From: Lacinutrix sp. 5H-3-7-4
Lineage (GTDB): Bacteria > Bacteroidota > Bacteroidia > Flavobacteriales > Flavobacteriaceae
Assembly: GCF_000211855.2 (NCBI RefSeq)
Contig: NC_015638.1
Coordinates: forward strand, 2,949,001-3,013,000
Reading direction: 5' to 3'
DNA length: 64,000 nucleotides
Shown piece after piece: positions 2,178 through 58,810 of the stretch; the first letter of the stretch is position 1, and every line of letters starts with the position of its first letter. The notes under the pieces are model-generated. The model searched no databases. It was not told where the DNA came from and worked only from the letters and a program-made list of their open reading frames with translations. Both the position numbers and the translations under genes were made by a program.

Positions 2178-2587
2178 TTAATCGGATTTAGTGTTACATT
2201 TGGTTTTTTAACGAATATTTAAGTTATTAAACTCATTTATTTGAATTAGAATTTAAATACTATTTCATTTGTATACGCTATTAATACCCAATAAATCAAC
2301 CTACTTTGTGACGCTTATGGTGCACTTCCCTTGACTGTAGATTAATATCATAATAGTAATTAATGGCATAACTTTTATTAAAACAGTTAAAATTTTTGTT
2401 ATGAAAATAAATCATTTCAAAGCAAAGTTAAATATTAATATTAATGTTTTCGTTTATAGCAAGTTAATTATTTGTTATGCGGAAACACTTTTTTATGCAA
2501 TTATTTCTCAGTTAATGGAGAATAACAATATTAAATCAAATGTAAATCTTGTGCCTACTTATAGATCCATTTGTAAAATCCCAAATT
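2178..2587. other. Intergenic region between sixA and the giant adhesin
   Basis: About 410 bases separate two divergent genes, so promoters for both should lie here. I found no good match to the Bacteroidota TTG / TAnnTTTG promoter pair, no convincing hairpin and no RNA gene. A 65-codon open frame at 2401-2598 has no recognisable domain and overlaps the adhesin start, so I do not call it. Confidence 0.5.
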
Positions 2588-5500
2588 ATGCTATCTAAAA
2601 CCAACTTTTCAAAAATGTCTTTAGTTAAGCGCACTATTACAGTGCTTCCGCTTTTTATTTTATTTTTATCAGCGTCAACTTTAAATGCTCAAATTAAAAA
2701 AGCGTTTACGCCTAGGTATAACGAAACAATTAGTGGCCAAGTAACAACTATTGCAAATAATGTTGTTTCTGCACATCCTACGTTAAATTACAATGGTTCG
2801 TTTGACAATCATAATTTCAACACTTTTTATGTTGATATAGATAATGACAACTCTACGTTTAACTCTAGCAGTGCTAATTTAGCAAACCCTAGACCTGGCG
2901 ATAGCTGTTTAGAGATTGAAAGAGTGTTATTATATTGGGCTGCTGCAGATAAAGGACCTATTTTTGGAGGTACTGAATTTGATAATGAACCTAATTGGAA
3001 TTTTAACGATGTAAAAATAAAACTTCCTGGTCAAGCTAATTACACAACCATAACTGCTGATGAAGTTATTTACCGAGGTAGAGATGAACACTTTATAAAC
3101 GATCCTTACGTTTGCTTTAAGGACATAACTGCAGATGTAAAAAGCTTAAGTTCACCATTTGGCACCTATCAAGTAGCTAATGTTGAAGCTAAAACTGGTA
3201 CTCTTTTTTCTCATGCTGGAAACAACACTGGTACTTCTGGTGGTTGGCAAATTGCAGTGGTTTATTCTAGTCCAGATTTAGAGCAAAGAAATATTACTTT
3301 ATCTGATGGTTATGTACATATAGCTAGTTCTACAAATAATATAGATTTTAACTTTAGTGGTTTTCAAACTGTACCTAATGGTCCTGTTAACACCAATGTT
3401 TTGGTTGGTGCACTGGAAGGTGATAGAAGTTTAAGTGGAGATAGGCTTCAAATTCAAGATATAAATGGAAGTTTTGTAGATATTAGTACACCTTCACGAA
3501 ATGCCAATAATTTTTTTAATAGTAGAATTACCATTGATCCAAATGGAGCGGATTTTACAAACAGAACACCTGCAAGTACTAACACTTTAGGTTTTGACGT
3601 TGCTTTATTTCCTTTAAGCAATCCTGGTAAATCTATTTTATCTAACAACCAAACGTCTGCAACAATTAGATTAAGATCTACGCAAGAAACTTATGGTTTA
3701 TTTTTATTAGGTTTTTCAATAGAAGTTTATCAACCAGATGTAGAAGTTGCTTTATTAGGATCTCCAACATCTGTTACTCCAGGTCCTACTCCAACTATAA
3801 TTAATTTTAATACACAATTAATTAATAGTGGTAATGATAATGCTGAAAATGTAATTCTTTCTACGGTAATAGACTCTGAAGCAGAACTCGTTTTACCAAT
3901 TACAGGTTTACCTGCTGGTGTTAATTATACTTATGATGAAGCTACACGATTATTAACCTTTACTGTAGATGATGGTATTTTAACATCAAACTCTCAACCT
4001 TTAGATATAAATTTCCAAGTAGAAATAAATGATGAATGTTACTTTTTAGAAAATAATGATGATGGCAATTTTTCTATTCAATTAAACACAAGTTATAACG
4101 GACAGATTAATAATTCAAATCAATCAACTGTTAGTTCTCAAGATTTTGATGCTTGTTCAAACGGAAATCTTAATACTACAACTGTAACAATTAATACACC
4201 TGAGCCTCCAACTTGGGAAACTGAACCTGGAGAATTAGATGTTACAATAGAATGTGATGATGCTAATGCTTTAAATGATGCTCAAGATTTAGCTCCTGTT
4301 ACAAATTGCGAAGGGTTACCGCCTATAAAAACTTCTGGTTCATTCGTTCAAAACGGAACATGTAATTCAAACGGAACATATACAAATACATTTACTTTAA
4401 CAGACGCTTACGGTAATGAGATTGACACTTATACACAAACCATTACAATTCAAGATACTCAAGCACCTGTAATAGATACAACTGCTTTCGATTTTACTGT
4501 GCAATGTGATGGTAATGGAAATACAACAGCACTTAACGATTGGTTAAATTCTAATGCTGGAGCCGTTGCTTACGATACTTGTAGTGAACCAATTATCTGG
4601 ACTAATGATTTTAGTGGATTGTCAGATGAATGTGGTGGTACAGGATCTGCTATTGTTACTTTTACAGCAACAGATCAATGTGGAAATTCTAGTACTACAT
4701 CTGCTTCATTTACAATAATTGATACATTACCTCCAACAATTGTTGGTTTCCCTTCAAATGTAGATAATAGTCAACCATCATGTGTAGATGTTCCTGTTTT
4801 AAGTTTTGAAAATTACACAGAAGAATCTGGAGACGGAAATGTAAATACCTATTTACAAGGAGAGGTTTTTAGATTTACTGAAATAGCTCCTGGTGTTGAT
4901 GCTTTAGTTAATATTGTAGCTACAGTTAATACAACAATTCCTGTTTTTGATGATAACTCTACAGGAAGTGATTCATTTAGACCAAGAACAGCTTTTTCAA
5001 TAGCAAATAATGGGGATAGAGCTTATACTGAGTTTAGATTCGATTTTGTTCAAGCAGGAACAACAACGCCTACTAGTTTACCAGAATTCTATTCAAATTT
5101 TAATGATATTGATGGTAATAATAATTATGGAGAAGTAAATTGGACTCAATTTACAAATAGTTATACTGTTAATGACCCTACAGATTTAACAATTACAGAA
5201 GAAGGACCTTGGATTGTTGCTACTTCTGGAACTACGGAATATACAGGCGTAACAAATGCAAATCCTCAAGCTAATTTTACTACTAGAAATACTAATGCAT
5301 CAAGTTTTTCTTTTAGAGTTGGTGTTGAAGCTAGAAAAAACAATGTTTCTGGAAGTGGAAGACAACATAATATTGAATTTACTTGTATTTCTAATTATAC
5401 AGATGCTGTTACAATTTCTGAAGAAATTACAATTGAATGTGATGAGCTAGAACCTGCTGAAGATTTAACAGCTACTGATGAATGCGGAAGTGCTACTATT

Positions 5501-6355
5501 AATTTTGAAGAAACAACAACTCCAGGAACTTGTGAAAATGAATTTACTGTAGAGAGAACATGGACTGCTACAGATGAATGCGGTAATACAACAACAAGAA
5601 CTTTAATAATAAATGTTGTAGATACCACTCCTCCTACTTTTACTGCGCCTGCTGATATTGAAATATTTACTGATGACTCTTGTAATTATGATGCGACAGT
5701 AACTCAAACTGGTGATGTAACAGATGAAGCTGATAACTGTTCTACTTCTATCGATGCTACTTTTACTGATGTAGTGACTGCTGGTGATTGTGAAGGTGCT
5801 TATATCATTACGAGAACTTGGACCTTAACGGATGATTGTGGAAATACTGCTACTGAGCAAACACAAACTATTACGGTTTCTGATAATACTGCGCCTACTT
5901 TTACTGCACCAGCTGATATTGAAATATTTACTGATGCCTCTTGTAACTATGATGCTACAGTAACTCAAACGGGTGATGTAACGGATGAAGCTGATAACTG
6001 TTCTGCTTCTATCGATGCTACTTTTACTGATGTAGTGACTGCTGGTGATTGTGAAGGTGCTTATATCATTACGAGAACTTGGACCTTAACGGATGATTGT
6101 GGAAATACTGCTACTGAGCAAACACAAACTATTACGGTTTCTGATAATACTGCGCCTACTTTTACTGCGCCTGCTGATATTGAAATATTTACTGATGTTT
6201 CTTGTAATTATGATGCTACAGTAACTCAAACGGGTGATGTAACGGATGAAGCTGATAACTGTTCTGCTTCTATCGATGCTACTTTTACTGATGTAGTGAC
6301 TGCTGGTGATTGTGAAGGGTGCTTATATCATTACGAGAACTTGGACTTTAACTGA
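2588..6355 (+). CDS. Adhesin fragment 1: signal peptide, unique N-terminal region, first repeats
   Basis: This open segment carries the signal peptide and a unique surface-protein region. It then has a DUF11-like stretch (about residues 380-530 from the upstream TTG frame), divergent HYR-like modules with the D-x-CGN signature, and the first three copies of the 87-residue unit. It ends at a TGA at 6353-6355 because a GAAGGG at 6315-6319 has one G more than the GAAGG found at the same place in other copies. ATG at 2588 is the first ATG of the frame; ATG at 2615 starts directly before the hydrophobic core and may be the true start. The TTG at 2549 would bury the signal peptide behind extra residues. 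Confidence 0.8.
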   Translation: MLSKTNFSKMSLVKRTITVLPLFILFLSASTLNAQIKKAFTPRYNETISGQVTTIANNVVSAHPTLNYNGSFDNHNFNTFYVDIDNDNSTFNSSSANLANPRPGDSCLEIERVLLYWAAADKGPIFGGTEFDNEPNWNFNDVKIKLPGQANYTTITADEVIYRGRDEHFINDPYVCFKDITADVKSLSSPFGTYQVANVEAKTGTLFSHAGNNTGTSGGWQIAVVYSSPDLEQRNITLSDGYVHIASSTNNIDFNFSGFQTVPNGPVNTNVLVGALEGDRSLSGDRLQIQDINGSFVDISTPSRNANNFFNSRITIDPNGADFTNRTPASTNTLGFDVALFPLSNPGKSILSNNQTSATIRLRSTQETYGLFLLGFSIEVYQPDVEVALLGSPTSVTPGPTPTIINFNTQLINSGNDNAENVILSTVIDSEAELVLPITGLPAGVNYTYDEATRLLTFTVDDGILTSNSQPLDINFQVEINDECYFLENNDDGNFSIQLNTSYNGQINNSNQSTVSSQDFDACSNGNLNTTTVTINTPEPPTWETEPGELDVTIECDDANALNDAQDLAPVTNCEGLPPIKTSGSFVQNGTCNSNGTYTNTFTLTDAYGNEIDTYTQTITIQDTQAPVIDTTAFDFTVQCDGNGNTTALNDWLNSNAGAVAYDTCSEPIIWTNDFSGLSDECGGTGSAIVTFTATDQCGNSSTTSASFTIIDTLPPTIVGFPSNVDNSQPSCVDVPVLSFENYTEESGDGNVNTYLQGEVFRFTEIAPGVDALVNIVATVNTTIPVFDDNSTGSDSFRPRTAFSIANNGDRAYTEFRFDFVQAGTTTPTSLPEFYSNFNDIDGNNNYGEVNWTQFTNSYTVNDPTDLTITEEGPWIVATSGTTEYTGVTNANPQANFTTRNTNASSFSFRVGVEARKNNVSGSGRQHNIEFTCISNYTDAVTISEEITIECDELEPAEDLTATDECGSATINFEETTTPGTCENEFTVERTWTATDECGNTTTRTLIINVVDTTPPTFTAPADIEIFTDDSCNYDATVTQTGDVTDEADNCSTSIDATFTDVVTAGDCEGAYIITRTWTLTDDCGNTATEQTQTITVSDNTAPTFTAPADIEIFTDASCNYDATVTQTGDVTDEADNCSASIDATFTDVVTAGDCEGAYIITRTWTLTDDCGNTATEQTQTITVSDNTAPTFTAPADIEIFTDVSCNYDATVTQTGDVTDEADNCSASIDATFTDVVTAGDCEGCLYHYENLDFN

Positions 6356-9300
6356 TGATTGTGGAAATACTGCTACTGAGCAAACACAAACTATTACGGT
6401 GTCTGATAATACTGCGCCTACTTTTACTGCACCAGCTGATATTGAAATATTTACTGATGCCTCTTGTAACTATGATGCTACAGTAACTCAAACGGGTGAT
6501 GTAACGGATGAAGCTGATAACTGTTCTGCTTCTATCGATGCTACTTTTACTGATGTAGTGACTGCTGGTGATTGTGAAGGTGCTTATATCATTACGAGAA
6601 CTTGGACTTTAACGGATGATTGTGGAAATACTGCTACTGAGCAAACACAAACTATTACGGTGTCTGATAATACTGCGCCTACTTTTACTGCGCCTGCTGA
6701 TATTGAAATATTTACTGATGCTTCTTGTAATTATGATGCTACAGTAACTCAAACGGGTGATGTAACGGATGAAGCTGATAACTGTTCTGCTTCTATCGAT
6801 GCTACTTTTACTGATGTGGTGACTGCTGGTGATTGTGAAGGTGCGTATATCATTACTAGAACTTGGACTTTAACTGATGATTGTGGAAATACTGCTACTG
6901 AGCAAACACAAACTATTACGGTGTCTGATAATACTGCTCCTACTTTTACTGCGCCTGCTGATATTGAAATATTTACTGATGCTTCTTGTAACTATGATGC
7001 TACAGTAACTCAAACGGGTGATGTAACGGATGAAGCTGATAACTGTTCTGCTTCTATCGATGCTACTTTTACTGATGTGGTGACTGCTGGTACTTGTGAA
7101 GGTGCTTATATCATTACGAGAACTTGGACTTTAACTGATGATTGTGGAAATACTGCTGCTGAGCAAACACAAACCATTACAGTGTCTGATAATACTGCGC
7201 CTACTTTTACTGCGCCTGCTGATATTGAAATCTTTACTGATGCTTCTTGTAACTATGATGCTACAGTAACTCAAACGGGTGATGTAACGGATGAAGCTGA
7301 TAACTGTTCTACTACACTTGATGCTACTTTTACTGATGTGGTAACTGCTGGTGATTGTGAAGGTGCTTATATCATTACAAGAACTTGGACCTTAACTGAT
7401 GATTGTGGAAATACTGCTACTGAGCAAACACAAACTATTACAGTGTCTGATAATACTGCGCCTACTTTTACTGCGCCTGCTGATATTGAAATATTTACTG
7501 ATGCCTCTTGTAACTATGATGCTACAGTAACTCAAACGGGTGATGTAACGGATGAAGCTGATAACTGTTCTACTACACTTGATGCTACTTTTACTGATGT
7601 GGTGACTGCTGGTACTTGTGAAGGTTCGTATATCATTACTAGAACTTGGACTTTAACTGATGATTGTGGAAATACTGCTACTGAGCAAACACAAACTATT
7701 ACGGTGTCTGATAATACTGCGCCTACTTTTACTGCGCCTGCTGATATTGAAATATTTACTGATGCTTCTTGTAACTATGATGCTACAGTAACTCAAACGG
7801 GTGATGTAACGGATGAAGCTGATAACTGTTCTGCTTCTATCGATGCTACTTTTACTGATGTGGTGACTGCTGGTACTTGTGAAGGTGCTTATATCATTAC
7901 GAGAACTTGGACTTTAACTGATGATTGTGGAAATACTGCTACTGAGCAAACACAAACTATTACGGTGTCTGATAATACTGCACCTACTTTTACTGCGCCT
8001 GCTGATATTGAAATATTTACTGATGCTTCTTGTAATTATGATGCTACAATAACTCAAACGGGTGATGTAACGGATGAAGCTGATAACTGTTCTACTTCTA
8101 TCGATGCTACTTTTACTGATGTGGTGACTGCTGGTACTTGTGAAGGTTCGTATATCATTACAAGAACTTGGACTTTAACTGATGATTGTGGAAATACTGC
8201 TACTGAGCAAACACAAACTATTACGGTGTCTGATAATACTGCGCCTACTTTTACTGCGCCTGCTGATATTGAAATCTTTACTGATGCTTCTTGTAACTAT
8301 GATGCTACAGTAACTCAAACGGGTGATGTAACGGATGAAGCTGATAACTGTTCTACTACACTTGATGCTACTTTTACTGATGTGGTTACTGCTGGTACTT
8401 GTGAAAGTGCTTATATCATTACGAGAACTTGGACTTTAACTGATGATTGTGGAAATACTGCTACTGAGCAAACACAAACTATTACGGTGTCTGATAATAC
8501 TGCGCCTACTTTTACTGCACCAGCTGATATTGAAATATTTACTGATGCTTCTTGTAACTATGATGCTACAGTAACTCAAACGGGTGATGTAACGGATGAA
8601 GCTGATAACTGTTCTGCTTCTATCGATGCTACTTTTACTGATGTGGTGACTGCTGGTACTTGTGAAGGTACTTATATCATTACGAGAACTTGGACTTTAA
8701 CTGATGATTGTGGAAATACTGCTACTGAGCAAACACAAACTATTACGGTGTCTGATAATACTGCCCCTACTTTTACTGCGCCTGCTGATATTGAAATATT
8801 TACTGATGTTTCTTGTAATTATGATGCTACAGTAACTCAAACGGGTGATGTAACGGATGAAGCTGATAACTGTTCTGCTTCTATCGATGCTACTTTTACT
8901 GATGTAGTGACTGCTGGTGATTGTGAAGGTGCTTATATCATTACGAGAACTTGGACCTTAACGGATGATTGTGGAAATACTGCTACTGAGCAAACACAAA
9001 CTATTACGGTGTCTGATAATACTGCGCCTACTTTTACTGCACCAGCTGATATTGAAATATTTACTGATGCTTCTTGTAACTATGATGCTACAGTAACTCA
9101 AACGGGTGATGTAACGGATGAAGCTGATAACTGTTCTGCTTCTATCGATGCTACTTTTACTGATGTAGTGACTGCTGGTGATTGTGAAGGTGCTTATATC
9201 ATTACGAGAACTTGGACTTTAACTGATGATTGTGGAAATACTGCTACTGAGCAAACACAAACTATTACGGTGTCTGATAATACTGCGCCTACTTTTACTG

Positions 9301-9947
9301 CGCCTGCTGATATTGAAATATTTACTGATGCTTCTTGTAATTATGATGCTACAGTAACTCAAACGGGTGATGTAACGGATGAAGCTGATAACTGTTCTGC
9401 TTCTATCGATGCTACTTTTACTGATGTGGTGACTGCTGGTACTTGTGAAGGTTCGTATATCATTACTAGAACTTGGACTTTAACTGATGATTGTGGAAAT
9501 ACTGCTACTGAGCAAACACAAACTATTACGGTGTCTGATAATACTGCGCCTACTTTTACTGCGCCTGCTGATATTGAAATATTTACTGATGCTTCTTGTA
9601 ACTATGATGCTACAGTAACTCAAACGGGTGATGTAACGGATGAAGCTGATAACTGTTCTACTTCTATCGATGCTACTTTTACTGATGTGGTGACTGCTGG
9701 TACTTGTGAAGGTGCTTATATCATTACGAGAACTTGGACTTTAACTGATGATTGTGGAAATACTGCTACTGAGCAAACACAAACTATTACGGTGTCTGAT
9801 AATACTGCACCTACTTTTACTGCGCCTGCTGATATTGAAATATTTACTGATGCTTCTTGTAATTATGATGCTACAGTAACTCAAACGGGTGATGTAACGG
9901 ATGAAGCTGATAACTGTTCTACTTCTATCGATGCTACTTTTTCATGA
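6320..9947 (+). CDS. Adhesin fragment 2: fourteen tandem HYR-like units, no own start
   Basis: The repeat continues here in a different frame for fourteen unit starts from 6435 to 9828, spaced exactly 261 bases apart. The only upstream start-like codon in this frame is a GTG at 6306 inside a repeat, so this is a continuation of the adhesin and not an independent gene. It ends at TGA 9945-9947, where the usual ACTTTTACTGATG is replaced by ACTTTTTCATGATG. That net +1 change involves more than one base and is not a plain homopolymer slip. All units keep the conserved cysteines (SCNYD, DNCS, CEG, DDCGN). Confidence 0.7.
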
Positions 9948-11127
9948 TGTGGTGACTGCTGGTGCTTGTGAAGGTGCGTATATCATTACAAGAACTTGGA
10001 CTTTAACTGATGATTGTGGAAATACTGCTACTGAGCAAACACAAACTATTACGGTGTCTGATAATACTGCGCCTACTTTTACTGCGCCTGCTGATATTGA
10101 AATATTTACTGATGCTTCTTGTAACTATGATGCTACAGTAACTCAAACGGGTGATGTAACGGATGAAGCTGATAACTGTTCTGCTTCTATCGATGCTACT
10201 TTTACTGATGTAGTGACTGCTGGTGATTGTGAAGGTGCTTATATCATTACGAGAACTTGGACCTTAACGGATGATTGTGGAAATACTGCTACTGAGCAAA
10301 CACAAACTATTACGGTTTCTGATAATACTGCGCCTACTTTTACTGCGCCTGCTGATATTGAAATATTTACTGATGCTTCTTGTAATTATGATGCTACAGT
10401 AACTCAAACGGGTGATGTAACGGATGAAGCTGATAACTGTTCTGCTTCTATCGATGCTACTTTTACTGATGTGGTGACTGCTGGTGATTGTGAAGGTGCG
10501 TATATCATTACTAGAACTTGGACTTTAACTGATGATTGTGGAAATACTGCTACTGAGCAAACACAAACTATTACGGTGTCTGATAATACTGCACCTACTT
10601 TTACTGCGCCTGCTGATATTGAAATATTTACTGATGCTTCTTGTAACTATGATGCGACTGTAACTCAAACGGGTGATGTAACGGATGAAGCTGATAACTG
10701 TTCTGCTTCTATCGATGCTACTTTTACTGATGTGGTGACTGCTGGTACTTGTGAAGGTGCTTATATCATTACGAGAACTTGGACCTTAACTGATGATTGT
10801 GGAAATACTGCTACTGAGCAAACACAAACTATTACGGTTTCTGATAATACTGCACCTACTTTTACTGCGCCTGCTGATATTACTATTAACTGTGAAGAAA
10901 ACCCAGATAATTTAACTTTAACTGGTGATGTGACTGATGAAGCAGATAATTGTTCTTCTGGATTAGAAGCAACATATACTGATACTACTAATCCTGGTGC
11001 TTGTGAAAATGAAGTAACAATCACAAGAACTTGGTCTTTAACTGATAACTGTGGGAATACTACAACAGCTATACAAACTATAAATGTTCAGGATAATACT
11101 GCGCCTGATATTTCTGCACTGCAGTAG
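9948..11127 (+). CDS. Adhesin fragment 3: three standard units and one ADITINC variant unit
   Basis: A third frame carries standard units starting at 10090, 10351 and 10612, then a diverged unit at 10873 with ADITINCEENPDN in place of ADIEIFTDASCNYD. The block from 10612 to 11117 matches 11762-12267 at a constant offset of 1150 bases. The frame closes at 11127, just after the join at 11117/11118, where sequence equivalent to 12267 is fused to sequence equivalent to 12966. It is part of the same adhesin and has no credible start of its own. Confidence 0.7.
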
Positions 11128-14100
11128 TGAATCTGTTATTACTAGAACTTGGACCTTAATTGATGATTGTGGAAACACAACTACTCAAGTACAAACCATT
11201 ACAATTCAAGATACAACCGTACCTACTTTTACTGCGCCTGCTGATATTGAAATCTTTACTGATGCTTCTTGTAATTATGATGCGACTGTAACTCAAACGG
11301 GTGATGTAACAGATGAAGCTGATAACTGTTCTGCTTCTATCGATGCTACTTTTACTGATGTGGTGACTGCTGGTACTTGTGAAGGTGCGTATATCATTAC
11401 TAGAACTTGGACCTTAACGGATGATTGTGGAAATACTGCTACTGAGCAAACACAAACTATTACAGTGTTAGATAATACTGCGCCTACTTTTACTGCGCCT
11501 GCTGATATTGAAATATTTACTGATGCTTCTTGTAATTATGATGCGACTGTAACTCAAACGGGTGATGTAACGGATGAAGCTGATAACTGTTCTGCTTCTA
11601 TCGATGCTACTTTTACTGATGTGGTTACTGCTGGTACTTGTGAAGGTACTTATATCATTACTAGAACTTGGACCTTAACGGATGATTGTGGAAATACTGC
11701 TACTGAGCAAACACAAACTATTACGGTGTCTGATAATACTGCGCCTACTTTTACTGCGCCTGCTGATATTGAAATATTTACTGATGCCTCTTGTAACTAT
11801 GATGCTACTGTAACTCAAACGGGTGATGTAACGGATGAAGCTGATAACTGTTCTACTTCTATCGATGCTACTTTTACTGATGTAGTGACTGCTGGTACTT
11901 GTGAAGGTGCTTATATCATTACTAGAACTTGGACCTTAACTGATGATTGTGGAAATACTGCTACTGAGCAAACACAAACTATTACGGTTTCTGATAATAC
12001 TGCACCTACTTTTACTGCGCCTGCTGATATTACTATTAACTGTGAAGAAAACCCAGATAATTTAACTTTAACTGGTGATGTGACTGATGAAGCAGATAAT
12101 TGTTCTTCTGGATTAGAAGCAACATATACTGATACTACTAATCCTGGTGCTTGTGAAAATGAAGTAACAATCACAAGAACTTGGTCTTTAACTGATAACT
12201 GTGGGAATACTACAACAGCTATACAAACTATAAATGTTCAGGATAATACTGCGCCTGATATTTCTGCTTGTAATGTTACTGATCAAACTGTTGAGTGTAC
12301 TGCTGATCTAAATCAAACGATCGCTGACCAATGGAATGCTGATAATATTGCTGCTTTGGAAGCTTGTGCTACTGACAATTGTGACACTTCTTTCTCTGGT
12401 CAAGTATCTTCTGATTACGATTACAACAACTTAAACACGGTATGTGGTCCTTGTGGAAATATTACTGTAACATATACGGTATCTGATAATTGTGGTAATA
12501 CTTCAACGGTAACTGCTACTCTTTCTTTTGGTGATACTACTGGTCCTGATCTTTCTTCTTGCGATGTTACTGATCAAACTCTTGAATGTGATGGGCAAAA
12601 CAACCAAACAATTGCTGATAACTGGAATAATGATAATATAACTGCTATCCAAGCTTGTGCTGATGATATTAATGTTACTATTACTTCTAATTATGACTTT
12701 AATAATTTAAATGCTACTTGTGGTGCTGGTGGAACTATAAGCGTTACTTATACTGCTACTGATGATTGTGGAAATACTGCAAATATTAATGCTACTTTAA
12801 CTCTTGAAGATTCTACTGATCCATCTTTTACAACGCCTCAAGATATTACTATTAATTGTGATCAAGATCCTACAGATTTAACGCTTACTGGTGATGTAAC
12901 GGATGAAACAGATGCTTGTTCTGGCGCTTTAAATGCTACTTTCCAAGATTCTATCGCTGCTGGGAACTGCAGTAGTGAATCTGTTATTACTAGAACTTGG
13001 ACCTTAATTGATGATTGTGGAAACACAACTACTCAAGTACAAACCATTACAATTCAAGATACAACCGTACCTACTTTTACTGCACCAGCTGATATTGAAA
13101 TATTTACTGATGCCTCTTGTAACTATGATGCTACAGTAACTCAAACGGGTGATGTAACGGATGAAGCTGATAACTGTTCTGCTTCTATCGATGCTACTTT
13201 TACTGATGTAGTGACTGCTGGTGATTGTGAAGGTGCTTATATCATTACGAGAACTTGGACCTTAACGGATGATTGTGGAAATACTGCTACTGAGCAAACA
13301 CAAACTATTACGGTTTCTGATAATACTGCGCCTACTTTTACTGCGCCTGCTGATATTGAAATATTTACTGATGCTTCTTGTAATTATGATGCTACAGTAA
13401 CTCAAACGGGTGATGTAACGGATGAAGCTGATAACTGTTCTGCTTCTATCGATGCTACTTTTACTGATGTGGTGACTGCTGGTGATTGTGAAGGTGCGTA
13501 TATCATTACTAGAACTTGGACTTTAACTGATGATTGTGGAAATACTGCTACTGAGCAAACACAAACCATTACAGTGTCTGATAATACTGCACCTACTTTT
13601 ACTGCGCCTGCTGATATTGAAATATTTACTGATGCCTCTTGTAACTATGATGCTACAGTAACTCAAACGGGTGATGTAACGGATGAAGCTGATAACTGTT
13701 CTGCTTCTATCGATGCTACTTTTACTGATGTGGTGACTGCTGGTGATTGTGAAGGTGCTTATATCATTACGAGAACTTGGACTTTAACTGATGATTGTGG
13801 AAATACTGCTACTGAGCAAACACAAACTATTACAGTGTCTGATAATACTGCACCTACTTTTACTGCGCCTGCTGATATTGAAATATTTACTGATGCTTCT
13901 TGTAACTATGATGCTACAGTAACTCAAACGGGTGATGTAACGGATGAAACTGATAACTGTTCTGCTACACTTGATGCTACTTTTACTGATGTGGTGACTG
14001 CTGGTACTTGTGAAGGTGCGTATATCATTACGAGAACTTGGACCTTAACGGATGATTGTGGAAATACTGCTACTGAGCAAACACAAACTATTACGGTGTC

Positions 14101-15724
14101 TGATAATACTGCACCTACTTTTACTGCGCCTGCTGATATTGAAATATTTACTGATGCTTCTTGTAACTATGATGCGACTGTAACTCAAACGGGTGATGTA
14201 ACGGATGAAGCTGATAACTGTTCTGCTTCTATCGATGCTACTTTTACTGATGTGGTGACTGCTGGTACTTGTGAAGGTGCTTATATCATTACGAGAACTT
14301 GGACCTTAACTGATGATTGTGGAAATACTGCTACTGAGCAAACACAAACTATTACAGTGTCTGATAATACTGCACCTACTTTTACTGCGCCTGCTGATAT
14401 TGAAATATTTACTGATGCTTCTTGTAATTATGATGCTACAGTAACTCAAACGGGTGATGTAACGGATGAAGCTGATAACTGTTCTACTTCTATCGATGCT
14501 ACTTTTACTGATGTGGTGACTGCTGGTGATTGTGAAGGTGCGTATATCATTACGAGAACTTGGACCTTAACTGATGATTGTGGAAATACTGCTAATGAGC
14601 AAACACAAACTATTACGGTGTCTGATAATATAGGACCAGACTTATCAAATTGTGATGTGACAGATGAGACAATTGAATGTACAGGTTCAGATAATGAAAC
14701 AATTGCTAATGATTGGAATGCTTCAAATATTGCAATTTTAACAAGTTGTGGAGTTGATAATTGTAATACAAATAACACAAATACAGTAGTTTCAGATTAT
14801 GACTTTAACAACTTAAACTCATCTTGTGGTGTTGGAGGAACAATAACTGTTAATTATACAGTTGGTGACAACTGTGGAAACACGACAACTATTCAAGCTA
14901 CCTTAACAATTGAAGATAGTATTGCTCCAATATTATTAACAGATATAGATGCTTCAATTTATGTGACTTGTTCAGAAATACCAGAACCTCCTACTTTAGA
15001 GTTTACAGATGACTGCTCTACTTTAGATGTAACTATCGATTTTACAGAAACTGATACAAGCGATGGATCTGGAGAAGATTATCAAATATTTTGGACTTGG
15101 ACTGCTACAGATTCTTGTGGTAATATTAAAGAGATTACACAAACTTTAAATGTTGTAAGTGAAGATTTTGTTGTAGAACAAGAAGATGCTAGATGTTTTA
15201 ATGATGGACTAATTGATTTATTTGAATATTTAGATGAAGGAGCAGATATTACTGGAACATGGACTGTAATTTCTGGTGACACAACAATAGAAGATGGTAT
15301 ATTTGATCCGTTAGAAGTTGAATTAGGTAATTATACTTTCAGTTATACATTACCTGAAGGAAATTGCTTAAAAACTACAGAAGTAACAATAGAAATTAAT
15401 GATGAATGTATTGAATTACCATGTGGTGTAGACACATTCAAAATTTCTAAAGCTGTCACACCTAATGGTGATGGATTTAATGATTTCTTTGAAGTTGGTG
15501 GTGTTAAAAAATGTGGGTTTATAATCGAACTACAAATATTTAATAGATATGGTGGCATTATTTTTGAATCTAAAAACTACCAAAACGACTGGAATGGTTC
15601 TTCTATTAGAACATCTTTAGGAGGTGCAGATAAGTTACCAAACGGAACTTACTATTATGTTGTTATAATTCAAGACAGTGGTTTAGATCCAATAACAGGA
15701 CCACTATACTTAGGTACTAAATAA
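11118..15724 (+). CDS. Adhesin fragment 4: repeats and C-terminal type B sorting domain
   Basis: This segment carries three standard units (11240, 11501, 11762), an ADITINC variant (12023), two longer divergent modules with DVTDQTxEC, another ITINC module (about 12840), six more standard units (13089-14394), and a unique C-terminal stretch. The last 95 residues match the gliding-motility-associated C-terminal domain that directs T9SS type B export. An ATG at 11084 opens the frame only by reading the preceding repeat out of frame, so it is not a natural start. If the breaks are real, this part, including the sorting signal, would not be joined to the signal peptide. Confidence 0.75.
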
Positions 15725-15732
15725 TTATTTTA

Positions 15733-16677
15733 ATGAAAAATAAAACAATATTAACATTTGCAATTATAGTTTTTAGTTTTGCGTTAAGTTTCGCTCAACA
15801 ATTACCACAATTCTCGCAATATATGTTTAATACTATATCTATAAATCCTGCTTATGCAGGAAGTAGAGAGACTTTAAGTGTTGTTGGTTTACACAGAAGT
15901 CAATGGGTAGGATTAGAAGGTGGTCCTAGTACACAAACACTGTCTATTCATTCTCCAATGAAAAACGAAAAAGTTGGATTAGGGCTTTCTATAATTAATG
16001 ACCAATTAGGATATGAAAATTTCATATTTGTTTATGGTGATTTTTCATATACCATACAAACAGGAGAGAAAACAAAATTAGCATTTGGATTAAAAGCAGG
16101 TTTCACTCACTATAGCTTAGATAATATTGGTTTTTTAAATGAAGAAGAAGTTTATTCAGATCCTTTTTTTAGTGATGTTAGCAGCCGTTGGAACCCAAAT
16201 GTAGGTGTTGGTTTATTTTGGCACACTAATAAATGGTACGTAGGTTTATCTGCTCCAAGAATATTAAATACAGATTATAATTTAGCAAATAAAGTAGATA
16301 ACGTAGATTACGTCGCATTAGAACGTGTTGGCTATTATTTAACTGGAGGTTATGTATTTAATTTAAGTGAAAATACTAAACTAAAACCAGCTGTATTAGC
16401 CAAAGTAGTTAATGGCGCACCACTTTCTTTCGATATTAACGCAAATCTATTATTTTATGAAAAACTTTGGCTTGGTGCCGGTTACCGCTATAATCAAGAT
16501 ACAACTACACTAGGAGCTTTAGTAGATTTTCAAATAGACAAACAATTAAGAATTGGTTATACTTACGAATATTTTCTTTCAGACTTAAGACCATATACAA
16601 GTGGAACACACGAAATTATACTTATGTATGAGCTCTTTAAACCTCAAAAACGTATAAAATCTCCAAGATATTTTTAA
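15733..16677 (+). CDS. PorP/SprF family type IX secretion outer-membrane protein
   Basis: A 314-residue outer-membrane beta-barrel with a signal peptide ending SFAQ, followed by QLPQFSQYMFNTISINPAYAGSRE, the hallmark N-terminus of the PorP/SprF family. In Flavobacterium johnsoniae SprF is needed to secrete the adhesin SprB, and proteins with type B sorting domains are usually encoded beside a PorP/SprF partner. It begins eight bases after the adhesin stop and its own stop is followed at once by the next ATG, so the three genes look like one operon. The likely job is dedicated export or anchoring of the upstream adhesin. That specific partnership is inferred from position. Confidence 0.93.
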   Translation: MKNKTILTFAIIVFSFALSFAQQLPQFSQYMFNTISINPAYAGSRETLSVVGLHRSQWVGLEGGPSTQTLSIHSPMKNEKVGLGLSIINDQLGYENFIFVYGDFSYTIQTGEKTKLAFGLKAGFTHYSLDNIGFLNEEEVYSDPFFSDVSSRWNPNVGVGLFWHTNKWYVGLSAPRILNTDYNLANKVDNVDYVALERVGYYLTGGYVFNLSENTKLKPAVLAKVVNGAPLSFDINANLLFYEKLWLGAGYRYNQDTTTLGALVDFQIDKQLRIGYTYEYFLSDLRPYTSGTHEIILMYELFKPQKRIKSPRYF

Positions 16678-18618
16678 ATGAAAAAAATACTATTCATACT
16701 AACTTTTATATCAATATCTGCTCTTGGTAGTGCACAAGTAAAAGTTGCAGATAACTTTTTTAGAGACTATGCTTATTATCAAGCAACAGAACTTTATTTA
16801 GAAGTACTAAAAAAAGGAGATACTACAGAACATGTTTTAACAAGACTTGGTGATTGCTATTACAACAACTCTAATGTTAAAATGGCTAGTTACTGGTATA
16901 AAAAAGCAGTTACAAAATATAATGATGTAAATCCAGAATACATTTATAAGTACATACAAACACTAAGAAGTTTAAATCAATTTTCAGAATCTAAAAAATG
17001 GACGCAAGTTTTTAAAGAAAGAAAGAAAAATGATAAACGTGTAAAACAAGAAGAAGATTTTGATATAGAAAAATTTGAAGCATTAGAAAATACAGAACGT
17101 GTTTATGTAGATTTTAAAAATTTAGATTTAAACACAGAATATTCAGACTTTGGAAGTTTTGAAATTGATAACAAACTATACTTCGCCTCTACTAGAGTAA
17201 GAGATACTATTATAGATGAAAAATTAATATATCAATGGAATAAAGAACCTTTTCTAAATATATATCAAGCCGAAGTTAAAATTGAAGATTCAAAACAAGT
17301 AATTAGTGATCCAGTAGAAATTAATTCTAACAGTATAAACTCTGCTTTTCACGAAGCTTCTGTTACTATAACTAATGATGGGAAAACAATTTATTTTACA
17401 AGAGATAATTTAAATAAAAAAGGAAAAAAAGTAACCTACGATAAAAAGGGCACATCAAACTTAAGAATTTTTAGAGCCAAATTAGAAAATGATAAATGGA
17501 GTAAACCTGAAGATTTACCATTTAATGGAGACGATTTTTCTAATGGTTCACCTGCACTGAGTCCAGATAATAATACATTATATTTTGTTTCAGATCGTGA
17601 AGATGGTTTTGGGCAAACAGACTTATACAAAATAAAAATAAATAAAGATGGTACCTTTGGTGAACCAAAAAACTTAGGTTCTAAAATTAATACTGAAGGA
17701 CGAGAAAACTTTCCATTTATAGCGAAAGACTCTACTCTATATTTTTCATCTGATGCCCATTTAAACTTAGGTCTATTAGATATTTTTGAATCTAATATTT
17801 TAAAAAAGGATACTACAGACGTTTATATTAAAAACTTAGGAGCTCCATTTAATAGTGGGTTTGATGATTTTGCTTTTTTTATAAATTCTGATACTAAAAC
17901 AGGCTATTTTTCATCAAACAGAGATGGTGGAAATGGTGGAGATGATATTTATTCATTTGGAAAATACGAATGTAAACAGACTATTACTGGTATAACAAGA
18001 AATAAACTCTCTAACGAACCACTGCCTAAAACTGTTGTAAAACTTATGGACGAATCTGGTAAAGTTATAGAAATGGTAACGTCTGACGAAAATGGGTTTT
18101 ATGAATTTAAAGATGTTGCTTGTAATTCTAAATTTGTAGTATTAGCAGAGAAAGTTATTTATAGGCCAGACCAAAGAGATATTAAAACATCTGAGGTGAA
18201 TGCCGAAGAAACTCAAGTTGATTTATTTTTAACACCATTAATTGTTGACAGTGAAATTGTAATAAACCCAATTTTCTTTGATTACGATAAATCTAACATA
18301 CGACCAGATGCAGCATACGAACTAGAAAATATTGTAGTTGTTATGCGAGAACATCCTAATATGGTAATTAAAATTGAATCTCATACAGATAGTAGAGGAA
18401 GAGATAAATACAATGAAAAACTCTCGGACAGAAGAGCAAAATCAACCAGAGATTATTTATTCTCTAGAGGAATTGCCAAAGATAGAATAGAGAGTGCAAT
18501 TGGTTATGGTGAATCTCAATTACTAAATAAATGTTCTAATGGTGTTAAATGTAGTGAAGAAGAGCACCAGAAAAATAGACGTTCTAAATTTATTATAACA
18601 AGTGGTTATTCAAAATAA
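16678..18618 (+). CDS. OmpA family protein with TPR-like, PD40 and carboxypeptidase-regulatory-like domains
   Basis: A 646-residue envelope protein. It has a signal peptide (residues 1-20), a TPR-like helical stretch (about 25-110), WD40-like PD40 beta-propeller repeats (about 190-420, with PALSPDNNTLYFVSD and DSTLYFSSD), a carboxypeptidase-regulatory-like beta-sandwich (about 435-505), and a C-terminal OmpA/MotB peptidoglycan-binding domain (about 525-640). The OmpA part shows FFDYDKSNIRPDA, SHTDSRG and NRRSKF. This architecture is common immediately after PorP/SprF genes in gliding Bacteroidota, where it probably anchors the secretion or adhesin complex to the cell wall. The start codon directly abuts the stop of the PorP/SprF gene. 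Confidence 0.93.
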   Translation: MKKILFILTFISISALGSAQVKVADNFFRDYAYYQATELYLEVLKKGDTTEHVLTRLGDCYYNNSNVKMASYWYKKAVTKYNDVNPEYIYKYIQTLRSLNQFSESKKWTQVFKERKKNDKRVKQEEDFDIEKFEALENTERVYVDFKNLDLNTEYSDFGSFEIDNKLYFASTRVRDTIIDEKLIYQWNKEPFLNIYQAEVKIEDSKQVISDPVEINSNSINSAFHEASVTITNDGKTIYFTRDNLNKKGKKVTYDKKGTSNLRIFRAKLENDKWSKPEDLPFNGDDFSNGSPALSPDNNTLYFVSDREDGFGQTDLYKIKINKDGTFGEPKNLGSKINTEGRENFPFIAKDSTLYFSSDAHLNLGLLDIFESNILKKDTTDVYIKNLGAPFNSGFDDFAFFINSDTKTGYFSSNRDGGNGGDDIYSFGKYECKQTITGITRNKLSNEPLPKTVVKLMDESGKVIEMVTSDENGFYEFKDVACNSKFVVLAEKVIYRPDQRDIKTSEVNAEETQVDLFLTPLIVDSEIVINPIFFDYDKSNIRPDAAYELENIVVVMREHPNMVIKIESHTDSRGRDKYNEKLSDRRAKSTRDYLFSRGIAKDRIESAIGYGESQLLNKCSNGVKCSEEEHQKNRRSKFIITSGYSK

Positions 18619-20546: not shown

Positions 20547-21448
20547 AGGTTAAACACCTTTCCATCGTCTGCTAATTCTACGTTATCAAAATACTCTTTT
20601 GCTTCTGTTTTAAACATATTCAAGTTATCATATCTAGTAGAGTAATGTCCTAATATCAATTTACCTGCATTAGCTAACTGTGCTATTTTTGCAGCTTCTT
20701 TAGCTGTACTATGTTTTGTTTTTGGTGCTAAATGAGCATGTTGTTCTAGAAAGGTAGACTCATGATAAATAACATCTATATTTTTTATTAATGGCACAAT
20801 AGCTTCGTTATATGCTGTATCACTACAAAAGGCATAACTTTTAGGCTTTTCTGGCGGAAATGTTACTGTTTCATTTTTTACAAGATCTCCTTTTTTGTTT
20901 TCAACATTAAAACCTTGTTTTAACTTTCTATAATATGCTACCTCAATATCTTCATTTAGTACAGCATTCATGTCTAATTTGCGTTCACCAGGCTTTTCTT
21001 TAAACAGAAACCCGTTGGTATACACTCTATGATCTAACGGTATAGTACTAACTTGGACTTTATCGTCTTCAAAGAGAACTTGAGATTCTAAACTAGTTAA
21101 TTCATGAAATATAAGCTTATAATTGGTCCATGACTTACTTAATTTCATTTGAAGCGTTATAACCTCTTTTATCCCTTTAGGGCCATAGATATGAAGATCT
21201 GCTTCTCTAGTCAACAATCTAAATGTTGAAATTAAACCTACTAAACCAAAAAAATGGTCACCGTGTAAATGGGAAATAAATATGTGTTTAATACGATTAA
21301 ACTTAATTTTATGTTTTCTAAGTTGTACTTGTGTACCTTCTCCACAATCTATTAAAAAAATATGGTTTTTAATCTCTAAAACTTGAGCTGTAGGATTTGT
21401 AAATGTACGTGGTGTTGCACTATAGCAACCAAGAATATTTAATTTCAT
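20543..21448 (-). CDS. rnz: Ribonuclease Z
   Basis: A 301-residue zinc-dependent endonuclease of the metallo-beta-lactamase fold that removes 3' trailers from tRNA precursors. The zinc-binding HLHGDH motif is at about residues 60-65. It is preceded by LIDCGEGTQVQL and followed by AFCSDTAYN and HSTAKEAAKIA with ILGHYSTRY, all standard for RNase Z. Its ATG overlaps the stop of the preceding STAS-like gene as TAATG, which suggests translational coupling. It closes a pyrR-pyrB-STAS-rnz minus-strand group. Confidence 0.96.
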   Translation of the reverse strand: MKLNILGCYSATPRTFTNPTAQVLEIKNHIFLIDCGEGTQVQLRKHKIKFNRIKHIFISHLHGDHFFGLVGLISTFRLLTREADLHIYGPKGIKEVITLQMKLSKSWTNYKLIFHELTSLESQVLFEDDKVQVSTIPLDHRVYTNGFLFKEKPGERKLDMNAVLNEDIEVAYYRKLKQGFNVENKKGDLVKNETVTFPPEKPKSYAFCSDTAYNEAIVPLIKNIDVIYHESTFLEQHAHLAPKTKHSTAKEAAKIAQLANAGKLILGHYSTRYDNLNMFKTEAKEYFDNVELADDGKVFNL

Positions 21449-21783: not shown

Positions 21784-22713
21784 CTATTGTTTTATTTTTG
21801 AAGCTAATAAATATATTACAGCCATTCTTACAGCAACACCATTTTGTACTTGATCCAGAATTATAGCTTGTTTAGAATCTGCAACATCACTAGTTATTTC
21901 AACTCCTCTATTTATTGGTCCTGGATGCATGATTGTTATTTCTTTATTGAGCGAATCTAGTAACTCTTTATTAACTCCAAATTGTTGTGTATATTCTCGT
22001 GTAGATGGAAAATAACTAATTTCCATACGTTCGTTTTGTACACGTAGCATATTTGCAACGTCACACCATTCTAACGCTTTGCGCAAGTTTGTTTCTACTT
22101 TTACACCCAAATCTGCAATATATTTTGGTAAAAGTGTTTTAGGACCGCAAACCATAACATTTGCACCTTGTAATTTTAAAGCGTATATATTTGATAAAGC
22201 CACGCGACTATGCAAAATATCTCCTACAATTACTACATTTTTTCCTGCTACATCTCCTAATTTTTCTCTTATAGAATACGAGTCTAAAAGGGCTTGTGTT
22301 GGATGTTCGTGTGCGCCATCGCCGGCATTAATTATATTAGCTTTTACATGTTTAGATAAAAACACACCAGCACCTGGATTAGGATGCCGCATTACTACCA
22401 TATCTACTTTCATAGATAATATATTATTTACAGTATCTATTAAAGTTTCTCCTTTTTTAACAGAGGATTGTCCTGCTGAAAAATTAATAACATCGGCAGA
22501 TAATCGTTTTTCTGCTAACTCGAAAGAAAGTTTTGTTCTGGTTGAGTTTTCAAAAAATAAATTTGCGATAGTAATATCGCGGAGAGATGGTACTTTTTTT
22601 ATTGGCCTATTAATCACTTCTTTAAAATGATCGGCTGTTTCAAAAATAAGTTGAATATCTTTTTCTTGAAGGTACTTAATTCCTAATAAGTGATCAACAC
22701 TTAACTCGCTCAT
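21784..22713 (-). CDS. pyrB: Aspartate carbamoyltransferase catalytic subunit
   Basis: A 309-residue cytoplasmic enzyme that condenses carbamoyl phosphate with aspartate in the committed step of pyrimidine synthesis. The carbamoyl-phosphate loop FFENSTRTKLSFE lies near residues 53-65, HPTQALLDSYSI near 135-146 and the HPGPINRGVEI motif near 265. Length equals that of the free catalytic chain, and no regulatory pyrI gene is adjacent. It lies 119 bases downstream of pyrR on the same strand, a usual pairing. Confidence 0.97.
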   Translation of the reverse strand: MSELSVDHLLGIKYLQEKDIQLIFETADHFKEVINRPIKKVPSLRDITIANLFFENSTRTKLSFELAEKRLSADVINFSAGQSSVKKGETLIDTVNNILSMKVDMVVMRHPNPGAGVFLSKHVKANIINAGDGAHEHPTQALLDSYSIREKLGDVAGKNVVIVGDILHSRVALSNIYALKLQGANVMVCGPKTLLPKYIADLGVKVETNLRKALEWCDVANMLRVQNERMEISYFPSTREYTQQFGVNKELLDSLNKEITIMHPGPINRGVEITSDVADSKQAIILDQVQNGVAVRMAVIYLLASKIKQ

Positions 22714-25390: not shown

Positions 25391-25765
25391 TGCAGATAAT
25401 AATTTGTATTCTGTTATGTTTAATAAGAAATAATGCGCTAACACACAGAAGTGTTTAAAATAAAATTGTTTAATCCCTTTTATTTCTTACTTGCGCTAAA
25501 AAGGAGTGCAAAAATACTACTTTTTAGTTATATTACCTAATACAATTTAAAAAGTTTAATATTACTGATTATCAAGAAAATATACTTCAAAATTGGTTAT
25601 GTCTTTTTTATAAATTCTATCGATAATTATGTAAATAATCGATTAAATAGATCACTTTATCTAATTTTAGTTTAATTTTTTACAAATTGGAAATTGAATA
25701 TCCTTTTTAAATTGATTAATTACTATCTTTAATACAGTAAGAATAACATTAAAAACAAAACAATT
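25391..25765. promoter_or_regulatory. Divergent control region between rpsA and the BON/LysM gene, with structured rpsA leader
   Basis: This 375-base stretch separates divergent genes. On the minus strand TATTTTTG at 25516-25509 fits the Bacteroidota -7 element TAnnTTTG and would give rpsA a leader of about 110 bases. Inside that leader are complementary arms at 25424-25433 (TAAGAAATAA) and 25480-25489 (TTATTTCTTA). Each is followed on the plus strand by a GCGCTAA copy. A feedback element for S1 is possible but unproved. No gene was seen here. Confidence 0.45.
25724..25731 (+). promoter_or_regulatory. Candidate -7 element for the BON/LysM gene
   Basis: TATCTTTA is one base from TAnnTTTG and lies 42 bases before the ATG. 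The surrounding 15-mer ACTATCTTTAATACA recurs before the ECF sigma gene near 33539-33553. No TTG element sits at the usual spacing, so this is weak. Confidence 0.35.
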
Positions 25766-52996: not shown

Positions 52997-53030
52997 AAAA
53001 AAAGCCGAAGCGTATTGCTTCGGCTTTTTT
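52997..53030 (-). terminator. Terminator downstream of the barrel gene at 53047
   Basis: AAAAAAGCCGAAGC and GCTTCGGCTTTTTT pair around GTATT, 17 bases beyond the barrel gene stop and before aroQ. Confidence 0.88.
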
Positions 53031-53046
53031 ATAATTATATATCTAA

Positions 53047-53676
53047 TTAAAATTTGTATGCAATACCAAAGTTAATGTTAGAGAAATCTAAACCAACATT
53101 AAAGTTGTTTCTAGCTTCTGCTCCTTCTGTATCTGCTTTAAAAGTATTATATCCAATAATACCATAAGATGCTTCTAAAGTAATACAATCTGAAACAAAG
53201 TAGCTAATACCTGGTGCTAATTCAAAGTTTAAGCCATCAAATTTAGCATCTTCATCTACAAATGCTACTTCGTTTTTTGAAGCGACAAAACTTGCTGATA
53301 ATTCAGCAAAGAAAGAAAATTGGTTTACTGGAGTCGCATAATAACGTCCAAAAACTCCCGCACTAAATGCTGTAGTTTTATCTTCTGCATCTACAAGCTC
53401 TAAAGTTGTAGGATTTATTGCAGGTCTTTCACTAGTTTGTGAAGCATAACCTAATGTTGCACCAATAGCAATGTTATCACTTACAAAAAATCCAACTTTT
53501 GGAGAAATTTCAAATTGGTTACCTTTAATATCTCCTTGAGATGTAGAACCAAATCCTACAGATCCTGAGATAAAAATATCTCCTTGATCAAAACCACCAA
53601 CAGTAGTTTGTTCTTGCGCACTTACGCTTGTAAAACCTAATACTGCAATAGCAGCTGTAAATAATAATTTTTTCAT
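53047..53676 (-). CDS. Outer-membrane beta-barrel protein
   Basis: A 209-residue protein with a signal peptide (MKKLLFTAAIAVLGFTSVSAQ). The body (GDIFISGSVGFGSTSQGDIKGNQFEISPKVGFFVSDNIAIGATLGYASQ) shows the strand-and-turn pattern of OmpW/OprF-like eight-stranded barrels and ends in GIAYKF. I use the ATG at 53676, supported by a promoter at 53707-53737 that would start transcription between it and the TTG at 53772, excluding the longer frame. Function is unknown; structural or stress barrel is likely. Confidence 0.88.
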   Translation of the reverse strand: MKKLLFTAAIAVLGFTSVSAQEQTTVGGFDQGDIFISGSVGFGSTSQGDIKGNQFEISPKVGFFVSDNIAIGATLGYASQTSERPAINPTTLELVDAEDKTTAFSAGVFGRYYATPVNQFSFFAELSASFVASKNEVAFVDEDAKFDGLNFELAPGISYFVSDCITLEASYGIIGYNTFKADTEGAEARNNFNVGLDFSNINFGIAYKF

Positions 53677-53706
53677 TTTTAAATTGATTTTATTGATTTG
53701 AATACG

Positions 53707-53737
53707 CAAATATAGGTCTCGGTTTATATTGCTCCAA
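53707..53737 (-). promoter_or_regulatory. Bacteroidota-type promoter for the barrel gene
   Basis: On the minus strand TTG (53737-53735) is followed after 20 bases by TATATTTG (53714-53707), an exact TAnnTTTG match. Transcription would start about 20-25 bases before the ATG at 53676. Confidence 0.6.
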
Positions 53738-53871
53738 GCACATTTTAGAGTAAAAAAAACATGTTTTCGCAAACGTTTGCATTACAATTATTTACTTAAT
53801 AAGTTTAACATCTTGTTATGAGTTTTATTATAAAAACCATAAAATCATTGATGTAAAAATTTATTATAAAA

Positions 53872-53898
53872 AAAGCCGAAGCTATTAACTTCGGCTTT
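53872..53898 (-). terminator. Terminator downstream of the barrel gene at 53919
   Basis: AAAGCCGAAG and CTTCGGCTTT pair around a seven-base loop, with A runs on the plus strand (T runs on the minus strand) beyond. It closes the barrel gene transcript. The stem sequence is nearly the same as in the terminator at 52997-53030. Confidence 0.85.
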
Positions 53899-53918
53899 AT
53901 TATAATTACTTTATATGT

Positions 53919-54608
53919 TTAGAACATGTATCCTACTGAAAGTTGAAATACTCTATTTTTTGGCTCGAAAAAATCGTCAAATTCTTCAAAATCATCACTG
54001 TCATCTTCTTCATCAATATCTGCTAACCCAAAATTATATCTTGCTTGAAACATGATACCATTTTCTAATCTATATCCAACACCAAAGTTAAGTCCAAAAT
54101 CAATTGATTTGTATAAATCTTTAACGTCAACACCATCTTCTGATCCAGATACTGTTTCTCCTGTTCCAGAATCTGTATAACTAAACTCATTATCAGATTT
54201 TGCAGAAACTAAAAAACCTACTTGTGGTCCTGCTTCAATAGAAAAACCTTCAAAAGGCATAAATTTCGCCATTATTGGTAGTGTTATATAATCTAACTTA
54301 ATAGTTGACTCTGAGTTTTCAAAATCAAATCCATCATCATATCTATAAGTAGATTTAGCTCCTTGTGAAGAATAAAGTACTTCTGGTTGAATAGCAAATT
54401 TTTCTGAAATTGGAATTTCTACTAGACCGCCAACATGAAAAGATGTTCTAGCTTCAAAGTCATTAGTTTCATCAAAATCGAAATTACCTAAATCACCACC
54501 AATATTAGCAATGTTTAATCCAGATTTAACTCCAAATTTTAATTCTTGCGCTTGGTTAGTTGCTAAAGTCATTACAGCTATTGCAGCTGTTAAAAATAAT
54601 TTTTTCAT
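53919..54608 (-). CDS. Small outer-membrane beta-barrel protein
   Basis: A 229-residue porin-family protein with a signal peptide (MKKLFLTAAIAVMTLATNQAQ) and LKFGVKSGLNIANIGGD, the same plan as the protein at 51706-52344. Matching segments include SFHVGGLVEIPISEKFAIQPEVLYSSQGA and SIEAGPQVGFLVSAK. It ends QLSVGYMF, an aromatic C-terminus fit for barrel insertion. Asp/Glu-rich loops (DIDEEDDSDDFEEFDDFF) are probably surface exposed. Function unknown. Confidence 0.88.
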   Translation of the reverse strand: MKKLFLTAAIAVMTLATNQAQELKFGVKSGLNIANIGGDLGNFDFDETNDFEARTSFHVGGLVEIPISEKFAIQPEVLYSSQGAKSTYRYDDGFDFENSESTIKLDYITLPIMAKFMPFEGFSIEAGPQVGFLVSAKSDNEFSYTDSGTGETVSGSEDGVDVKDLYKSIDFGLNFGVGYRLENGIMFQARYNFGLADIDEEDDSDDFEEFDDFFEPKNRVFQLSVGYMF

Positions 54609-58543: not shown

Positions 58544-58581
58544 TTTTTAGTTAGTTTTGATTGTTATTTGTTTTGGTTACA

Positions 58582-58785
58582 AAAAAAAAGCCTACACTAA
58601 TTTTGTTTTGTATAAACTCCTTAAAAACAAGTTTAGGGTTAACAAGCTGATCAAGTATCTGCCCAAATGGATACTGAAAAAATTCAGTAAAACCATTAGC
58701 AGCACGCTTTTACAACTTAAACTCACCCTTTTTAAAAGAATTAACGTTGAGTTTATCAAAAAGATAATTAATGTAGGCAGTAACC
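58582..58785 (-). ncRNA. ssrS: Putative 6S RNA
   Basis: The zapA-rny gap holds an RNA-like element of about 200 bases. The two ends, 58778-58766 (GCCTACATTAATT on the minus strand) and 58602-58590 (AATTAGTGTAGGC), form a 13-bp terminal helix with one G-U pair, followed by a nine-T tract. An inner pair ATAAACTC / GAGTTTAT continues the rod. The centre holds a long hairpin: CTGC, ATGG and ACTGAA pair with TTCAGT, CCAT and GCAG around a T-rich loop. A rod with terminal helix, unpaired centre and apical stem is the plan of 6S RNA, which binds RNA polymerase. Location beside zapA is also the usual site of ssrS in proteobacteria. Identification rests on structure and context, not on a covariance search. 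Confidence 0.7.
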
Positions 58786-58810
58786 TAATTTTATTTATAT
58801 GAACGTTTTT

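Follow-up and report, generated by a model that had tools for sequence, protein, structure and literature searches.

Is the giant adhesin gene of Lacinutrix sp. 5H-3-7-4 really broken, or was it broken in the making of the deposited sequence? The question was raised by the first-pass annotation of a 64,000-nucleotide stretch of the genome (hereafter the window), which had noted three frame breaks confined to the repeat array of the gene. We found these breaks to be present in the deposited sequence, where they divide the gene into four open reading frames (ORFs), and we consider it very probable that they are consensus and joining errors of this sequence in tandem arrays.

The window (bases 2,949,001–3,013,000; GC content 31.7%) belongs to a genome of 3,296,168 bases in one contig (99.97% complete), which was published in 2011. 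A genome size of 3.29 Mb and a GC content of 30.8% are given for strain 5H-3-7-4 in the excerpted text of PMC4916215. It should be mentioned that Table 1 of PMC4324048, as excerpted, lists 37.2% GC for the same strain against the 31.7% of the window and the 30.8% of PMC4916215; this value is probably a slip in the table.

Structure of the adhesin gene and its neighbors

The adhesin as a whole occupies positions 2549–15724 of the plus strand and is represented by four overlapping ORFs in changing frames, all on this strand. The first piece (2549–6355; 1268 aa) contains the N-terminal region, HYR_4C domains and the first units of the array, and stops past the first break. It is followed by a second piece composed of HYR_4C units (6306–9947; 1213 aa), a third one (9901–11127; 408 aa) and a fourth one (11084–15724; 1546 aa), in which more units precede a C-terminal CHU_C/TIGR04131 sorting domain. 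HYR_4C domains were revealed in pieces 1, 2 and 4 by a domain scan of those three pieces. The sorting domain of piece 4 scored 74.3 bits with PF13585 (cut-off 27) and 43.2 bits with TIGR04131 (cut-off 35).

Two intact genes lie downstream on the plus strand. The first one, at 15733–16677, encodes a PorP/SprF family protein of 314 aa (TIGR03519, 271.1 bits, cut-off 90.55; PF11751, 284.4 bits, cut-off 22.3), and the second one, at 16678–18618, a PD40/OmpA protein of 646 aa. Thus, two features of T9SS type B adhesins, the C-terminal sorting domain (in piece 4 only) and the adjacent PorP/SprF gene, are found at this locus. An export signal and a sorting domain on one open frame, export signals being judged by eye, are not found in the deposited sequence with its four ORFs, and because of this split we do not class the complete deposited gene as a T9SS type B member.

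Structure of the repeat array and its three breaks

The array span of the adhesin extends over 9,113 bases (5621–14733) and contains many-copy exact repeats, the longest of 452 bases. Its first tandem array (5621–11117, plus strand) consists of 261-base HYR_4C units and a terminal variant block. In total, 31 starts of units were located, and two of the intervals between them (367 and 1065 bases), which extend over other blocks, were left out of the alignment. The unit length is 261 bases in 27 of the 29 aligned units and 262 bases in the remaining two, which start at 6158 and 9813 and are the sites of breaks 1 and 2.

All three breaks, on the plus strand, are at the places given in the first-pass annotation. 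At break 1 (6317–6319) a run of three G has gained one base relative to the other aligned units, in agreement with the one extra G described there. Break 2 had been characterized as a net gain of one base with more than one base changed, and we indeed observed one added base and changes in the adjoining bases at 9938–9945. Break 3 lies exactly where it had been placed, at 11117|11118, and is a seam with no base common to both sides. The 344 bases on its left side are identical to a copy ending at 12267, and the 118 bases on its right side to a copy starting at 12966, the block between these two copies (12268–12965, plus strand) being 698 bases long. The sequence contexts joined at break 3 were not found adjacent anywhere else in the gene. 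Since the two sides of the seam match copies that are 698 bases apart and nowhere else adjacent, a misjoin is favored at this point.

The odd spacings of 262, 262 and 367 bases are all equal to 1 modulo 3, and piece 4 is therefore back in the frame of piece 1; three shifts of random sign would have equal sign, and so restore the frame, by chance one time in four. The longest runs near breaks 1, 2 and 3 comprise three, five and three bases, respectively. The runs that grew by one base reached three G and five T in this adhesin and four A in a second adhesin described below.

Confinement of the breaks to the array

The window was compared by tblastn with the closest relative, genome G011, from whose fetched stretches all stop-to-stop ORFs of at least 80 aa in six frames, spurious ones included, were taken. 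Among 94 ORFs compared, 76 had a match in the window, 70 of them at 60% identity or more. The matched ORFs cover 50,173 bases of the window, including 49,136 bases outside the array span, and only one of them, the adhesin, was flagged as split; no other frame break was thus detected against G011 over these 49,136 bases. The probability that three of three breaks fall inside the 9,113-base array span is 0.004 under uniform placement. Furthermore, 181 runs of six or more bases in the compared sequence carry no break. Around 27.5–28 and 53–54.5 kb the window has little or no G011 match at 60%; the ORFs of these regions (272, 244 and 231 aa) are uninterrupted.

In the reverse test, in which window ORFs were compared with G011, 65 of the 66 ORFs with a match passed the filter. 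An 83-aa ORF (58551–58799) was flagged; it aligns to G011 in two frames via an 18-residue stretch. Over the bases covered, the comparison with G011 ORFs agrees with the earlier remark that no other internal frameshift was noticed in the genes read.

Two adjoining minus-strand ORFs of 244 and 231 aa at 53000–54500 have similar starts and no match at 60% in the G011 stretches compared.

The breaks are confined to long exact-repeat arrays, which is one of the features by which tandem-repeat assembly errors are recognized. The first-pass annotation had taken this confinement as a pointer to assembly error; our data support this view, though they do not prove it, and add to it the seam at break 3, a second broken adhesin and the signs of purifying selection.

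A second broken adhesin and other CHU_C genes of the genome

The genome has 16 genes with CHU_C, and the 15 besides the window gene were all inspected. One encodes a second giant adhesin, with CshA repeats and Ig-like domains, which is located at G000:C1:2068213-2081228 and is likewise represented by four ORFs (2146, 630, 431 and 1149 aa). All three of its breaks lie inside its own array and two of them are joins. The join at local position 22533|22534 has no shared base, while that at 25706 can alternatively be read as an 8-base overlap with a further small length change. An A run is longer by one base than in seven other copies. The breaks of this gene do not restore the first frame. An in-frame boundary at 20982|20983 joins two kinds of units; it may be natural and was hence left out of the break count.

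In each of the remaining 14 CHU_C genes the frame is uninterrupted between a start that looks signal-like by eye and the sorting domain. Exact repeats of at least 100 bases make up 6,915 and 8,064 bases of the two broken genes; among the 14 open genes such repeats account for 1,669 bases in one (3,176 aa) and are absent from 13. Thus, only the two genes with more than 2 kb of exact tandem repeats are broken (two of two versus none of 14; p = 1/120, with a dividing line set after looking). That the breaks of a second adhesin fall within its array, with none in the other 14 CHU_C genes, favors assembly error; the open state of the 3,176-aa gene, with its 1,669 bases of exact repeats, counts against it.

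Exact stretches are also shared between CHU_C genes. Dispersed exact stretches as long as 1,947 bases are common to two open genes of 1,974 and 2,475 aa, and those shared by the loci of the 1,899- and 1,770-aa genes reach 927 bases; none of these genes is broken, and it is therefore tandem rather than dispersed repetition that accompanies the breaks. The locus pairs sharing such stretches (L055 4413–9310 and L057 7346–12243; L059 4887–11803 and L060 4747–11279) lie far apart in the chromosome, and their sequences hint at recent duplication or gene conversion.

The adhesin in related genomes

The closest relative by adhesin is the metagenome-assembled genome of Lacinutrix sp. MedPE-SW, for which 93% ANI to strain 5H-3-7-4 is given in the excerpted text of PMC4916215. 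An uninterrupted gene was found in two other genomes. The one-contig genome G002 contains an open frame of 5,836 aa, which matches both ends of the adhesin and includes two long arrays; 10,182 bases of this frame lie in exact repeats of at least 100 bases. In Psychroserpens sp. SPM9 the frame is open over 4,084 aa. In both genomes an export signal (by eye) and a sorting domain are located on one open frame.

A single frame break in the adhesin array, with open neighboring genes, was revealed in G004, an assembly of two contigs rated 100% complete. By eye, this break (L044, about 11340–11355) consists of two extra bases in a six-base stretch, while the aligner placed one two-base gap there. It may be a comparable error, or it may show that breaks of this sort arise in nature. 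G004 is the main result that fits poorly with a purely technical reading, unless a similar error occurred there.

In G009, which like G002 and G004 belongs to the one- or two-contig genomes of the genus, the array is open, an in-frame TAA lies ahead of the array, and the OmpA-like gene is divided into two ORFs in different frames; in view of these features and a completeness of 84%, this genome was set aside as evidence on array breaks. In all seven multi-contig genomes of the genus that matched the C-terminal query over its whole length, the distance from this match to a contig end is about 2.6 kb at most, which counts in favor of assembly error. Two further drafts, G001 and G003, yielded only weak matches.

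Selection on both sides of the breaks

In comparison with G011, dN/dS of the adhesin was 0.145 before the breaks and 0.081 past all of them, and the neighboring PorP and OmpA genes gave 0.058 and 0.091, respectively. In the four segments, which contain 3, 13, 4 and 9 units, pN/pS between the units of the array was 0.078, 0.185, 0.110 and 0.127, respectively. These ratios are rough, as synonymous differences are high (0.55–0.60 per site), and the unit pairs are not independent. Nevertheless, they show purifying selection on both sides of the breaks, and no segment appears released from it, a picture that a very recent real break would also give.

Origin of the breaks

What, then, has broken the gene? 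Most likely, the breaks are errors of the assembly rather than real damage to the gene, an ordinary explanation. The cell would probably have one very large T9SS type B adhesin, encoded by an uninterrupted gene, which would probably be secreted and then held at the surface by the adjacent PorP-like protein. With exact repeats of such length in so many copies, short reads would have lacked a unique placement, and the unplaceable reads would have left local errors uncorrected, giving rise to breaks 1 and 2. Break 3 would have been formed when two sequence ends were joined without overlap.

The sequencing technology and the joining step presumably lie behind these breaks. According to the excerpted text of PMC3570806, a flavobacterial JGI project of similar date combined 454 and Illumina data with Newbler, Velvet and fake reads, applied Dupfinisher to misassemblies, and used editing and PCR to close gaps. 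A similar pipeline presumably yielded the present genome, to judge by the authors in its citation. The excerpt of PMC6868369 describes the misassembly of long adhesin repeats from short reads, and the 454 homopolymer trouble that it reports concerns runs above 4–5 bases. The excerpt of PMC5524665 does not bear on adhesin array breaks.

Plain homopolymer error was not adopted as a complete explanation of breaks 1 and 2: the runs there are short, and 181 runs of six or more bases are unbroken. As the runs at the breaks are mostly shorter than the problem length of 454 sequencing, both breaks are better read as uncorrected local errors in an unplaceable stretch. Unequal recombination was rejected, since units of 261, 630 and 597 bases are multiples of three, and their gain or loss would keep the frame and could not make the breaks.

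A second explanation is that indels and illegitimate joins, arising for example during laboratory culture, have recently deprived the strain of its two giant array adhesins. The breaks do stand in a deposited one-contig sequence, an array break is also seen in G004, and a recent event would leave no signal of relaxed selection. However, all six breaks in the two genes lie within arrays, with none in the 14 other CHU_C genes, whereas a break anywhere in a gene would suffice to inactivate it, so that confinement to arrays is not expected from real loss; the partner genes, moreover, are intact. We therefore regard such an inactivation as improbable. Slightly less probable still is the broader proposition that the breaks are real in both adhesins, that G004 is a third case, and that T9SS adhesin arrays are hot spots of frame-breaking illegitimate rearrangement; if the breaks were real, adhesin loss would concentrate in the arrays.

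The first-pass annotation had also suggested that the cell, if the breaks are real, has lost the sorting domain or can switch it. In the latter case slippage at the break points would toggle this domain, and the three shifts of the window adhesin do have the same sign and add up to a whole codon. Contingency loci are known to undergo slipped-strand phase variation, for which a hypermutable run or a short tandem repeat at the switch point is required; yet the longest runs near the breaks are of three, five and three bases, the runs of six or more bases are unbroken, equal sign arises by chance in a quarter of cases, the second adhesin stays out of its first frame, and break 3 is a seam rather than a slippage site. 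With no slippage tract at the breaks, the suggestion of a switch did not hold, and phase variation is very unlikely. The same absence of slippage tracts and the same seam led us to reject programmed frameshifting, in which ribosomes would shift at three sites to make one long protein: the pieces are consecutive and each is open to its break, but such a site is absent from 27 of the 29 aligned units, the frames of G002 and Psychroserpens sp. SPM9 are open without any shift, and the seam is found nowhere else in the gene, which makes this explanation negligible.

Returning to assembly error, the two T9SS type B adhesins richest in repeats in this genome are probably misassembled. Care is therefore needed when lengths are taken from such records, intact substrates are counted or pseudogenes are called.

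Comparison with known systems

A close parallel to an error of this kind is the adhesin Ilm of Yersinia ruckeri, with identical repeats of about 300 bases. In both cases near-identical units, which are similar in length in the two genes, cannot be spanned by short reads, but the effects differ: wrong copy numbers and a contig break are described for Ilm in the excerpted text of PMC6868369, whereas the window adhesin shows frame breaks and seams. Contingency loci resemble it in having frame changes in a surface protein gene and differ from it in that the window adhesin has no long homopolymer or short tandem repeat at its breaks.

In its architecture the window adhesin corresponds to the SprB-like T9SS type B giant adhesins, with which it shares the HYR_4C stalk, the terminal CHU_C/TIGR04131 domain and the adjoining PorP/SprF-like gene. 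It differs from them in being deposited over four ORFs, of which only the last passes the domain test. The partner gene provides a further distinction. SprF of the SprB gliding system carries a Cys-X-Cys tail (PMC12635249, excerpted text), whereas the 40 C-terminal residues of the window partner (15733–16677) include no cysteine, and neither do those of the second adhesin's partner. Since the window partner lacks a C-terminal cysteine, unlike SprF, surface anchoring is likelier than gliding; gliding is not implied by this gene, and the adhesin is likely to be anchored at the cell surface.
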